64,000 nucleotides of DNA from NCBI RefSeq assembly GCF_003651225.1, contig NZ_RCDB01000002.1, forward strand, positions 124,001 through 188,000, given 5' to 3'. Below the pieces are notes generated by a model. The model ran no database searches. It was given only the letters and a program-made list of their open reading frames with translations, and was not told the DNA's origin. The translations under genes were made by a program, and so were the position numbers. Source of the stretch: Microbacterium telephonicum. GTDB lineage: Bacteria; Actinomycetota; Actinomycetes; Actinomycetales; Microbacteriaceae. Below, piece by piece: positions 2,355-18,647 of this stretch (positions within the stretch are counted from its first letter, which is position 1; every line of letters begins with the position of its first letter).

Positions 2355-3166
2355 CCGATCCGCTGCGGCAGGCGGCCGAGACGATGCGCGCCGTGCGTGC
2401 GCGCTGCGTGTGGTCGCAGCAGATCGACCACGAGGCGCTCGTGCCGTACCTCGTCGAGGAGTCGGCGGAGCTCATCGACGCAGTCGAGGTCGGCTCCCGC
2501 GCCGACCTGCGCGAAGAGCTCGGCGACCTGCTCTGGCAAGTGCTGTTCCACGCCGAGATCGCCGCCGGTGACCCCGACGACCCGTTCGACATCGACGACG
2601 TCGCCGCGGGGCTCGTCGAGAAGATGGTGCGCCGGCATCCGCACGTCTTCGCGGATGCGGTCGCCACGACACCCGAGGAGGTGCTCGTGCACTGGAACGC
2701 GGCGAAGGCAGCCGAGAAGCGCCACCGACGCTCGGTGCTCGACGGCGTCTCGCCCCACATGCCCTCCCTCGCCCTCGCCCAGAAGCTGCTCGGCAAGGCC
2801 GCATCCGTCGGCGCCGCCGCGCCCGCGCTGACGCCTGAGCCCGCGAGACCTCATCGGGTGGCCGAGACCGCGGCGGAACCCCACGGTCTCGTCGTGCAGA
2901 TGAGGTCTCGCGGGCAGTGGGCGTACGTGCCGGGGTCGGAGGCTGAGCTGGGGGAGCGGATGCTGGAGCTCGTCGCGCTCGCGCGGGCGCAGGGGTGGGA
3001 TGCGGAGCGGGCGATGCGCGGGGCGATCCGAGGGCTCGAGCACCGCATCCGTGACACCGAGGCCGATGCCGCCGCCGATGCCGAAGCCGAGGCCGAAGCC
3101 GGAGGGGCCCTCGACGCGGCCCGCACCGACGAGGCGGAGACCGGCGCGACGGATCTGGAAAACTAG
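2309..3166 (+). CDS. mazG: MazG-family nucleoside triphosphate pyrophosphohydrolase with palindrome-encoded insert
   Basis: Hydrolyses (d)NTPs to monophosphates and pyrophosphate, a house-cleaning or stress function. The 285-residue product shows the MazG metal-binding pattern EESAE (E50, E51, E54) followed by EELGDLL (E70, D73). A second helical block, near ERMLELVALARAQGWDAE, closes the fold, and the C-terminal tail is rich in Ala and Glu. Between the halves, residues 177-203 are encoded by a 17-base inverted repeat that adds an in-frame linker (listed separately). The start at ATG 2309 has TATCGT 7 bases upstream, inside the end of nhaA, so the gene may have its own leaderless promoter. 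A GTG at 2300 is the alternative. Confidence 0.9.
   Translation: MASPAARGEHRDDSLTDPLRQAAETMRAVRARCVWSQQIDHEALVPYLVEESAELIDAVEVGSRADLREELGDLLWQVLFHAEIAAGDPDDPFDIDDVAAGLVEKMVRRHPHVFADAVATTPEEVLVHWNAAKAAEKRHRRSVLDGVSPHMPSLALAQKLLGKAASVGAAAPALTPEPARPHRVAETAAEPHGLVVQMRSRGQWAYVPGSEAELGERMLELVALARAQGWDAERAMRGAIRGLEHRIRDTEADAAADAEAEAEAGGALDAARTDEAETGATDLEN
2839..2915. repeat. Palindromic element inside mazG
   Basis: Arms GCCCGCGAGACCTCATC (2839-2855) and its exact reverse complement (2899-2915) enclose 43 bases. That inner stretch contains a second nested pair, CGAGACCG and CGGTCTCG. The whole element is read through in frame within mazG and adds roughly 26 residues at the junction of two helical segments. 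It differs in sequence from the GGTTGAGTAG repeats near 16-18 kb. Confidence 0.8.
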
Positions 3167-15696: not shown

Positions 15697-15737
15697 CCGG
15701 TGGTTGAGTAGCCGGCGAAGCCGGCGTATCGAAACCC
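15697..15737 (+). repeat. REP-like palindrome, copy 1
   Basis: A 41-base element running from CCGGTGGTTGAGTAGC through an inner palindrome (GCCGGC-GAA-GCCGGC) to GTATCGAAACCC. It lies between the convergent hydrolase and VOC genes and could act as a terminator as well as a repeat. Confidence 0.85.
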
Positions 15738-16643: not shown

Positions 16644-16672
16644 CCCGTTGGTTGAGTAGCGGATGCAACGGG
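16644..16672 (+). repeat. Degenerate REP-like element, copy 2
   Basis: Contains the 5' half GTTGGTTGAGTAGCGG but not the GTATCGAAACCC half. Its ends CCCGTT and AACGGG are themselves an inverted repeat. It lies just after marR. Confidence 0.6.
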
Positions 16673-16683
16673 CGGTGCCCATT

Positions 16684-16724
16684 CCGGTGGTTGAGTAGCG
16701 CGCGCAGCGCGCGTATCGAAACCC
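16684..16724 (+). repeat. REP-like palindrome, copy 3 (upstream of DUF222 gene)
   Basis: A 41-base copy with inner palindrome GCGCGC-A-GCGCGC. It differs from the copy at 18150-18190 by one base and has the same orientation, so the two form direct repeats around the DUF222-HNH gene. Confidence 0.85.
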
Positions 16725-16825
16725 GCCGAACCCGGCATCGGATGCTGGCGCGCGACGCCGTCGAGTTCTCCACGACCCTCTCGAACATTCGAATCAATGT
16801 CCGAGGGTGGTGGGAGAATCAGAGC

Positions 16826-18136
16826 ATGTCGAAGTTCACGAAGATCACCACCCTGGAGGACGATCTCACTGTCCTGGGCGCGATCATCGCGGGCTTCGAA
16901 ACGAACGCGGTCGAGCTTCGTCAGGCACAGATCGCGGAGGTACGCCTACTGGCCCGTGCCGGTCAGCTCGCCGACGCCCAGACTGCCGGTTCCCCTCTGC
17001 GGGTGCGGGAACACGACATGGCGCTGCGGTCCATCGCCGCCGAGATCGGTGGCGTGCTGCACGTGACGGATCGCACCGTGCAGGCGAGGATCGGGGACGC
17101 CCGGACCCTGGTCGAGATGTACCCGGCGACGCTTACTGCGTGGGAGTCGGGTGCAATCACGAAGGGTCAGGTGCAGGTGATCACGGATGCCGGTGACGTC
17201 GTGCCCGCGTCTCGCCGCCCGGAGTTCGAGGCCGAAGCGATCACCCAGTGCGAGGGCCGTACGCCGAACCGTCTCCGCCCAATCCTGCAGCTCCTCGCGG
17301 AACGGTTCACCGACCGCACGTTCACCGAACGTCACCAAGACGCCGCCGCGGCCCGGTGCGTGCGGGTGTTCCCGGGACGTGACGGGATGTGCGACGTGGT
17401 CGCCACCGTCCCCACGGTGATCGGTGACGGGATCCTCGACCGGCTGACTCAGCAGGCGCAGGCCGTGGTCGATGCCCGCGACCCGGGTGATGGTGACGAG
17501 CGCGGGATCGACGCCGTCCGCGCCGACGTGCTCACCGACCTGCTCCTCGCCGGGACGCCGGCTTTGGATCCGACGGCGACCGGTGACCAGCCCGGGACGT
17601 TGGGTGCGATTCGCGCGCAGGTGCAGGTGGTCGTCCCGGCGCTCACGTTGGTGGGTGTGGATGAGGGTCCGGCTGATCTGGTGGGGCGTTCTCCGATCGA
17701 TGCGGACACGGCTCGGTGTCTTGCCGCGCGGTCCCCGTCGTTGACGAGGTTGTTGACGGATCCGGTGCGTGGGTCGGTGGTCGCGATCGACGCGTACCGT
17801 CCCGCTTGGTCCCAGCGCCGGTTCCTTCGGGCGAGGGATCAGCATTGCCGGTTCCCGGGGTGCCGGAGGGCGGCGATCCGTTGCGAGATCGACCACACCA
17901 TCGACCACGCCCTCGGCGGCCCCACCACCCTCGGCAACCTCGCTCACCTGTGCCAACGGCATCACTCGATGAAGCAGTTCACCCGGTGGCGGGTCCGACA
18001 ACACCCGGGTGGCGTCCTGGAATGGACCTCACCCCTCGGCAGAACCTACCGCGAAGACGCCCCCATGCCTCCCGTGACCTTCACCCCTGCCACCCCACCC
18101 GCCAGCGCCGAATCCCTCGAGCCGGCACCCTTCTGA
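16826..18136 (+). CDS. DUF222 protein with C-terminal HNH endonuclease domain
   Basis: A 436-residue member of the DUF222/HNH family (the 13E12 repeat family of mycobacteria). The N-terminal two thirds is the DUF222 helical domain. The HNH domain lies near residues 340-390 with the paired Cys motif CRFPGC, the core EIDHTIDHALGG, and LAHLCQRHHSMK. HNH proteins cut DNA, but no target or role is proven for this family; a selfish or homing element is often suspected. It is bracketed by REP-like copies. GAGAAT six bases before ATG 16826 suggests a leaderless start. Confidence 0.88.
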   Translation: MSKFTKITTLEDDLTVLGAIIAGFETNAVELRQAQIAEVRLLARAGQLADAQTAGSPLRVREHDMALRSIAAEIGGVLHVTDRTVQARIGDARTLVEMYPATLTAWESGAITKGQVQVITDAGDVVPASRRPEFEAEAITQCEGRTPNRLRPILQLLAERFTDRTFTERHQDAAAARCVRVFPGRDGMCDVVATVPTVIGDGILDRLTQQAQAVVDARDPGDGDERGIDAVRADVLTDLLLAGTPALDPTATGDQPGTLGAIRAQVQVVVPALTLVGVDEGPADLVGRSPIDADTARCLAARSPSLTRLLTDPVRGSVVAIDAYRPAWSQRRFLRARDQHCRFPGCRRAAIRCEIDHTIDHALGGPTTLGNLAHLCQRHHSMKQFTRWRVRQHPGGVLEWTSPLGRTYREDAPMPPVTFTPATPPASAESLEPAPF

Positions 18137-18149
18137 CGCCCCGCACCCA

Positions 18150-18556
18150 CCGGTGGTTGAGTAGCGCGCACAGCGCGCGTATCGAAACCCGCGCACCCAC
18201 CAACACCGTCGAGGTCTGGGGCGTTTCGACTCGTCGCTGCGCTCCTCGCTCAACGACCGGGGGGTCTTCGCCTTCCGGTGGTTGAAGCGCGCGCAGCGCG
18301 CGTATCGAAACCCGCGCACCCACCAACACCGCCGAGGTCCGGGGCGTTTCGACTCGTCGCTGTGCTCCTCGCTCAACGACCGGAAGGGGACGCCCCGGCC
18401 TCCGGTGGTTGAGTAGCGCGCGCAGCGCGCGTATCGAAACCCGCGCACCCACCAACACCGTCGAGGTCTGGGGCGTTTCGACTCGTCGCTGCGCTCCTCA
18501 CTCAACGACCGGAACTTCCGGTCGACTCGTCGCGAAGCTCGTCGCTCAACGACCGG
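18150..18556. repeat. Tandem array of composite REP units
   Basis: Three units of about 110 bases recur with a period of 125-127. Each has a forward GGTTGAGTAG palindrome (18150-18190, 18275-18313, 18402-18442), a 32-base spacer (18191-18222, 18314-18345, 18443-18474), and a reverse relative running GTTTCGACTCG to CAACGACCGG (18223-18260, 18346-18383, 18475-18512). Spacers 1 and 3 are identical, and spacer 2 differs at two positions. A partial reverse copy closes the array at 18521-18556. This fills most of the 511-base gap before the ABC operon; no gene is seen in it. Confidence 0.9.
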
Positions 18557-18647
18557 GCGGGTGCTCGACGGTGCACGGTCGGGGGTCGCATAGGCTGGCG
18601 TCGGCGGTGCATCGTGCCCGTCCACTCACCGGCGGAGGATCGCGCGC

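Follow-up and report, generated by a model that had tools for sequence, protein, structure and literature searches.

Two kinds of dispersed bacterial repeat bear on the locus described here. Repetitive extragenic palindromic (REP) sequences, together with bacterial interspersed mosaic elements (BIMEs) and REP doublets forming hairpins (REPINs), occur with REP-associated tyrosine transposases (RAYTs), whose genes are described as always having two inverted REPs on their flanks (Nunvar 2010, PMC2817692; Bertels and Rainey 2011, PMC3116915). The mycobacterial 13E12 or REP13E12 repeats are members of the DUF222 family (PMC10589994, PMC13061034, PMC5005354), which one paper portrays as mobile-element-like and LexA-regulated and which a 2026 preprint describes as still without a defined biological function (PMC13061034). 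Each of these two kinds of repeat is already known; their pairing did not turn up in searches of open-licence papers, among which the terms ‘DUF222’ and ‘palindromic’ co-occur in PMC10589994 and PMC8477406; by term match, PMC3733652 makes no mention of Microbacterium, Clavibacter, Actinobacteria, HNH, Leifsonia or Mycobacterium. Here a gene for a DUF222-HNH protein is found together with REP-like palindromes in Microbacterium telephonicum, and around the DUF222 genes sampled across the genus such repeats are strongly enriched within 1 kb. The window, that is, the whole stretch of DNA analysed, comprises 64,000 nucleotides (contig NZ_RCDB01000002.1, positions 124,001 to 188,000; C2:124001-188000 of the genome designated G000, which has 3,118,122 bases).

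The repeats of the window consist of two related palindromes in opposite orientation, A(+) and B(−), and the array unit is A(+)-spacer-B(−) with a spacer of ~32 nt. The locus has the following features:

15697..15737, plus strand: full A palindrome, isolated, between two convergent genes (from sequence; core 15703-15735)
16644..16671, plus strand: A palindrome, degenerate left half (from sequence; family D5)
16684..16724, plus strand: A palindrome upstream of the gene, forming the left limit of what the window copy shares with copies L071 and L072
16789..16804, plus strand: SOS-box-like motif (3/14 mismatches), the same in the five full copies of the subfamily in this genome
16826..18136, plus strand: DUF222-HNH gene, 436 amino acids (aa)
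16913..17323, plus strand: residues 30-166, predicted ParB/Noc-like helix-turn-helix region (AlphaFold2 model, VIA-align rows 1-12)
17843..17965, plus strand: HNH motif, residues 340-380
18150..18260, plus strand: array unit 1, A(+) at 18150-18190, spacer, B(−) core at 18223-18254; one hairpin predicted
18275..18383, plus strand: array unit 2, imperfect A(+), spacer, B(−) core at 18346-18377
18402..18512, plus strand: array unit 3, A(+), spacer, B(−) core at 18475-18506; one hairpin predicted
18519..18557, minus strand: degenerate B-like piece, the fourth, closing the array on the right (from sequence; family D6)

The preliminary description of this DNA had placed 41-base palindromes at 16684-16724 and 18150-18190, and these are present in identical orientation with one mismatch. 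The three-unit array that it reported downstream, with a period of 125-127 bases and a spacer of ~32 nt, was also recovered (A starts at 18150, 18275 and 18402, with spacings of 125 and 127), the middle A lacking the GTA of GAGTAG. Both outlying copies that it had named exist, the one at 15697 as a full A and the one at 16644 as a left half only. The palindromes and the array are real and beyond chance, because in the same genome the pattern GGTTGAGN{6,36}TCGAAAC gave 58 matches versus 0 for its reversed control, and the looser GTTGAGN{8,30}TCGAAAC gave 178 copies versus 1 for the reversed pattern.

At the sites inspected, a subset of the copies, the repeats of G000 are intergenic, and at the loci fetched from this genome close neighbours (<120 nt apart) are inverted in 59 of 66 cases. 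As single-stranded DNA, array units 1 and 3 are each predicted to form one long hairpin (−27.8 kcal/mol, z −2.1, and −31.1 kcal/mol, z −3.6, respectively, relative to dinucleotide shuffles); the fold of the lone 41-mer is not significant by the same measure (z −1.4). High copy number, short length, a largely extragenic position, inverted doublets whose spacer-joined halves are predicted to fold as one hairpin, and alternating tandem arrays are all features of the REP/BIME/REPIN class as described, and the anatomy of the G000 repeats is that of REPIN/BIME repeats. As with RAYTs, arrays are found at the gene for a DNA-processing enzyme; however, that gene here encodes a DUF222-HNH protein and not a Y1 transposase, flanks of two inverted repeats occur at some loci only (L160-L162 of G014), and a GTAG-type head is not general, since GTAG followed by a GC palindrome characterizes the A variant of G000 and is found in neither the B variant nor the G008 and G130 repeats. 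A RAYT as hidden engine was rejected, as PF01797 had no match in G000, nor in any of 16 repeat-rich genomes, in a search whose positive controls matched in 5 named genomes. Carriage by a plasmid or phage was rejected as well, the only matches (to 7 plasmid and 8 phage records) being below 60% identity.

Seven DUF222 genes were found in G000 by search with the DUF222 model. This is a lower bound because contigs C1 and C4 break inside palindrome-bearing copies: C1 begins (L075) within a further DUF222 copy, which again has an array downstream, and the end of C4 (L085) holds a palindrome plus the first residues of a DUF222 copy. Five of the seven, all of one subfamily, have a tandem A(+)-spacer-B(−) array downstream. 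In each of these five the core of the first palindrome lies 18-20 nt past the stop codon, the palindrome directly downstream being (+) first, and the longest array has seven A-B units. Two of the copies, L069 and L070, encode proteins 93% and 92% identical to that of the window and share the array.

Across 119 Microbacterium genomes, DUF222 is present in 117, with up to 19 copies per genome. Being almost private (4 of 38 genomes), the exact A variant was rejected as a genus-wide mark, and looser motifs were used. One of these, GTTGAGN{3,30}WCGAAAC, ranges from 0 to 311 copies per genome. A total of 87 of 303 DUF222 copies from 27 genomes were sampled (G000, 7 of 7; G008, 7 of 7; G013, 4 of 12; G015, 9 of 11), the remaining 60 of 266 coming from 23 repeat-rich genomes and being chosen by best Pfam scores, not by adjacency to repeats; 25 of the 30 genomes with at least 30 motifs were thereby covered. 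Within 1 kb of the 87 DUF222 open reading frames (ORFs) 104 repeats were counted, versus 4.9 expected from genome density (genome sizes partly rounded), yet between 1 and 4 kb the number was that of the background (15 versus 13.7). Thus, the link between gene and repeats that had been proposed from the window alone is borne out, and the repeats are not spread evenly but are enriched near DUF222 genes.

Among the 74 loci of the sample that lie in repeat-rich genomes, 3 were dropped owing to a contig end <400 bp away; of the 71 left, in 25 genomes, 24 have a half-motif within 400 bp, versus 1 of 119 control ORFs (Fisher P value 5.6e-11), and 22 have at least two, versus 0 of 119. The controls were taken mechanically from the same loci (length ≥250 aa; G000 supplied 54 of the 119). 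After collapsing the DUF222 loci, with the controls left uncollapsed, to within-genome paralog groups (≥60% identity), 10 of 46 groups retained the trait (P value 1.1e-5). By contrast with the DUF222 loci, those of rve-transposases (30 of 35 places) have a half-motif in 2 of 30 cases. On a quick tree of 85 proteins, proximity of a repeat to the gene changed at least 10 times, by gain or loss; all seven DUF222 genes of G008, from two distant clades, carry repeats. An earlier finding of ‘no link outside G000’, obtained in G008 with a motif ending in TCGAAAC, was rejected, as the G008 copies end in ACGAAAC. Strict motifs miss variants: the palindrome upstream of L071, with one changed base, was left uncounted, and in G115 a variant repeat near 4 of 5 DUF222 genes is seen by the broad motif only. 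Repeat count and DUF222 count correlate with rho 0.32 over the 119 genomes, relatedness being ignored. None of the 30 genomes with at least 30 repeats lacks DUF222; the test is a weak one, the gene being present in 117 of 119 genomes anyway.

The side on which the repeats lie varies. In G008 they are upstream of all seven DUF222 genes and never downstream; arrays are downstream in G000 and at locus L139 of G089; and at the three G014 loci named above the repeats stand on both sides, inverted. Bracketing by direct copies, as seen in the window, is therefore not a general design. The orientation is more constant, as the nearest upstream palindrome has one orientation at 20 of 21 loci (paralogs counted singly). 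Array length ranges from 1 to 14 palindromes among copies. In G130 (L109-L111) the upstream, left end carries tandem arrays of a 24-nt left half palindrome whose length differs per copy.

The edges of the duplicated unit were located by comparing copies. For 20 of 25 copy pairs (G015, G079, G115 and G130) the homologous stretch extends to a point no more than 5 nt from the stop codon; in G008 pairs it stops 27-76 nt before the stop codon, and in G000 pairs it continues into the arrays. On the left, the edge falls ~50-110 nt upstream of the gene in repeat-less pairs (G079, G115 and L118/L122) and at a palindrome in G130 (the L107 pairs) and in the window, L071 and L072 copies of G000, whose shared edge at −58/−59 from 16742 corresponds to 16684. 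Repeats lie inside the shared unit in four G130 copies, in three G000 copies and in L120 of G067 and L122 of G116, where array and gene are shared at 90% identity between unrelated flanks; L118 of G064 lies at the same locus as L120, with its palindromes ~3 kb off across an insert. Among the 12 cross-genome pairs of sampled loci with a common flank, both flanks agree in 2, a pattern that a moving gene would be expected to leave. Inspection of the promoter-to-stop units by eye showed neither terminal inverted repeats nor target site duplications, no strain being near enough for a duplication to be read. For the window copy itself, a search with the permease gave 2 loci only, with differing gene order, and is uninformative on an empty site.

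One site without the gene could be compared. Copy L071 sits in the gap that separates ndk from a convergent VKOR-family gene. Of the 119 genomes, 117 gave an ndk match, and 30 ndk loci, one of them that of G000, were compared: in 29 of 29 relatives the ndk-VKOR gap, of about 2-493 nt, has no DUF222 match. The 29 gaps were also read by eye because neither motif matches in the ndk locus of G000, L199; by the two motifs and by eye alike (for L216, over 420 of 493 nt) no such repeat was found in any of them. The comparison of these sequences indicates that one gene-plus-array unit was gained whole at this gap. The expectation that an empty site would hold a single repeat copy failed at the one such site examined. 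That gene and repeats form a mobile unit is supported in part: shared unit edges and the gain between ndk and VKOR speak for it, but the gene also multiplies without repeats. In one of the relatives (G082, L226) the same gap contains no DUF222 gene but an array of another short unit (CGAGTGAGTATTCGTGC), whose copies stand first in tandem and then inverted.

The 436-aa protein of the window matches DUF222 (E 4.5e-15; 56.2 bits, cut-off 24.4) and, at 21.0 bits, falls just below the 21.4 cut-off of the HNH model PF01844; phage HNH families (PHROG) match it with E down to 1.4e-7. Residues C341, H357, N371 and C376 are invariant across 79 aligned relatives and H380 is nearly so. In predicted models of this protein and of P0121, ~20-22% identical to it, a ParB/Noc/KorB-like DNA-binding domain (in P0121, residues about 43-188) is predicted to precede the HNH domain; domains of this type occupy rows 1-12 and 1-11, respectively, of the VIA-align results, a fold search that covered little outside the ParB-like and HNH stretches. 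The likeness to ParB, Noc and KorB is one of predicted structures, and differs in that the domain is here joined to HNH and that a sequence search of the PDB with the window protein, admitting E values up to 1, gave no solved relative. The fold resembling ParB, the nuclease activity of the HNH part and the hairpin are all predictions. Anti-phage models did not match. The only NCBIfam match (residues 331-384) was to RNA-guided IscB at 11.9 bits, far below the cut-off of 175, a difference from the IscB and McrA/TagI-type HNH nucleases, which are among the nearest known systems; for a guide RNA or a RuvC part, the Rfam scan gave nothing at gathering score and no further search was made for either.

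The SOS-box consensus is TCGAACANNTGTTCGA, and sites with at most 3 of 14 mismatches to it were taken as SOS-box-like. Such a motif lies near 31 of 85 DUF222 starts, versus ~0.5 expected in shuffles; in the window and at these starts it overlaps a promoter block, ATGTCGG...AGAAT, common to distant DUF222 clades. Furthermore, the DnaA-box-like TTNTCCACA is found near 24 of 85 DUF222 starts versus 2 of 2284 background windows. It stands just upstream of the promoter, for example at about −70 in L120, and the window copy has a one-base variant. Together with the one paper on mycobacterial relatives, the promoter motifs suggest that DUF222-HNH genes may be induced by DNA damage. The 13E12 family is matched in the DUF222 domain with a C-terminal HNH and in the several dispersed copies per genome; it differs in that the passages on the mycobacterial genes do not mention REP palindromes.

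We tentatively propose, giving it a little less than an even chance, that the palindromes form a REPIN/BIME-like repeat system and that a DUF222-HNH nuclease serves it, the protein driving both the spread of the repeats and its own copying; for repeats of this class it would be a new engine. The multi-copy gene shares a dispersed unit with the palindromes; the protein would probably bind them via its predicted ParB-like domain, and the predicted HNH nuclease would probably cut at them; such cutting would make the repeats grow in number and spread, and the gene itself would be copied into new intergenic sites. The sequence comparisons document that gene and repeat are associated, that this recurs in several species and gene clades, the shared unit edges, one empty site and no detectable Y1/RAYT transposase; from there on, binding, cutting and copying by the DUF222-HNH protein are what we infer. 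Several observations weigh against the proposal. About 80% of the repeats are located away from DUF222 genes. In G000, arrays without such a gene exist (for example, C1:558532 and C4:120620), 11 copies of other stem types lie at C1:110104-111507 with no DUF222 gene, and the two DUF222 genes of other subfamilies have no array. For 59 of the 87 DUF222 genes sampled, the surrounding 400 bp hold no such repeat; none is found at the three DUF222 genes of G060 or the two of G114, both repeat-rich genomes; and the gene multiplies without the repeat, as at 9 of 9 sampled loci in G015.

The strongest rival makes DUF222-HNH a selfish, insertion sequence (IS)-like unit running from promoter to stop codon, on which the palindromes, as separate repeats that settled there or were captured, hitch-hike without being its substrate. 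The repeat-free movement in G015, G079 and G115-type units, with edges near promoter and stop, fits it, as do the majority of repeats lying elsewhere and the bare DUF222 genes of repeat-rich genomes. Nevertheless, it would have to accommodate the near absence of half-motifs at other mobile intergenic loci (the rve-transposases) and at other ORFs, the constant upstream orientation, and captures repeated in many clades; we regard it as doubtful, though a serious contender.

That the gene inserts in or beside existing palindromes, the repeats being landing sites, has a precedent in ISPpu9, an IS that inserts into REPs (PMC8450116), and left unit edges often fall at a palindrome. The ndk-VKOR site, however, lacks such a repeat in all relatives compared, the repeat belongs to a unit shared across different loci, and the tandem arrays at a near-fixed distance past the stop codon of five copies are left unexplained, so that this target preference is unlikely. 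Palindromes kept as terminators, insulators or operators by selection on gene expression, an idea suggested by intergenic GC-rich hairpins near promoter or stop, are very improbable given the spread in array length, a side that varies by species and the many copies without any. A by-product of recent segmental duplication in G000, to which the near-identical, array-sharing L069 and L070 point, is scarcely credible as a full explanation because gene and repeats are linked in other species and in distant clades as well, although it may still explain the copy number in G000.

On the proposal of a DUF222-HNH-served repeat system, these proteins could be the mobilisers of REP/BIME/REPIN-like repeats in actinobacteria, each a ParB-like palindrome reader joined to an HNH nuclease, SOS-inducible and constituting a second, RAYT-independent origin of REP systems, a generalization that we hold slightly more tentatively still. 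If true, it would also give a function to the DUF222/13E12 family, which is multi-copy across the genus, where REP-like repeats occur with no Y1 transposase detected. Given a specific pairing of gene and repeat, with unit edges and a domain predicted to read palindromes, both questions could be put to a direct test in ordinary laboratory strains.

Two individual loci showed further features. In L092 of G008 the DUF222 frame ends after 163 aa, with five upstream palindromes still in place, and in L063 of G012 unrelated units of ~30-34 nt are arrayed in tandem (about 2758-3048) downstream of the DUF222 gene.
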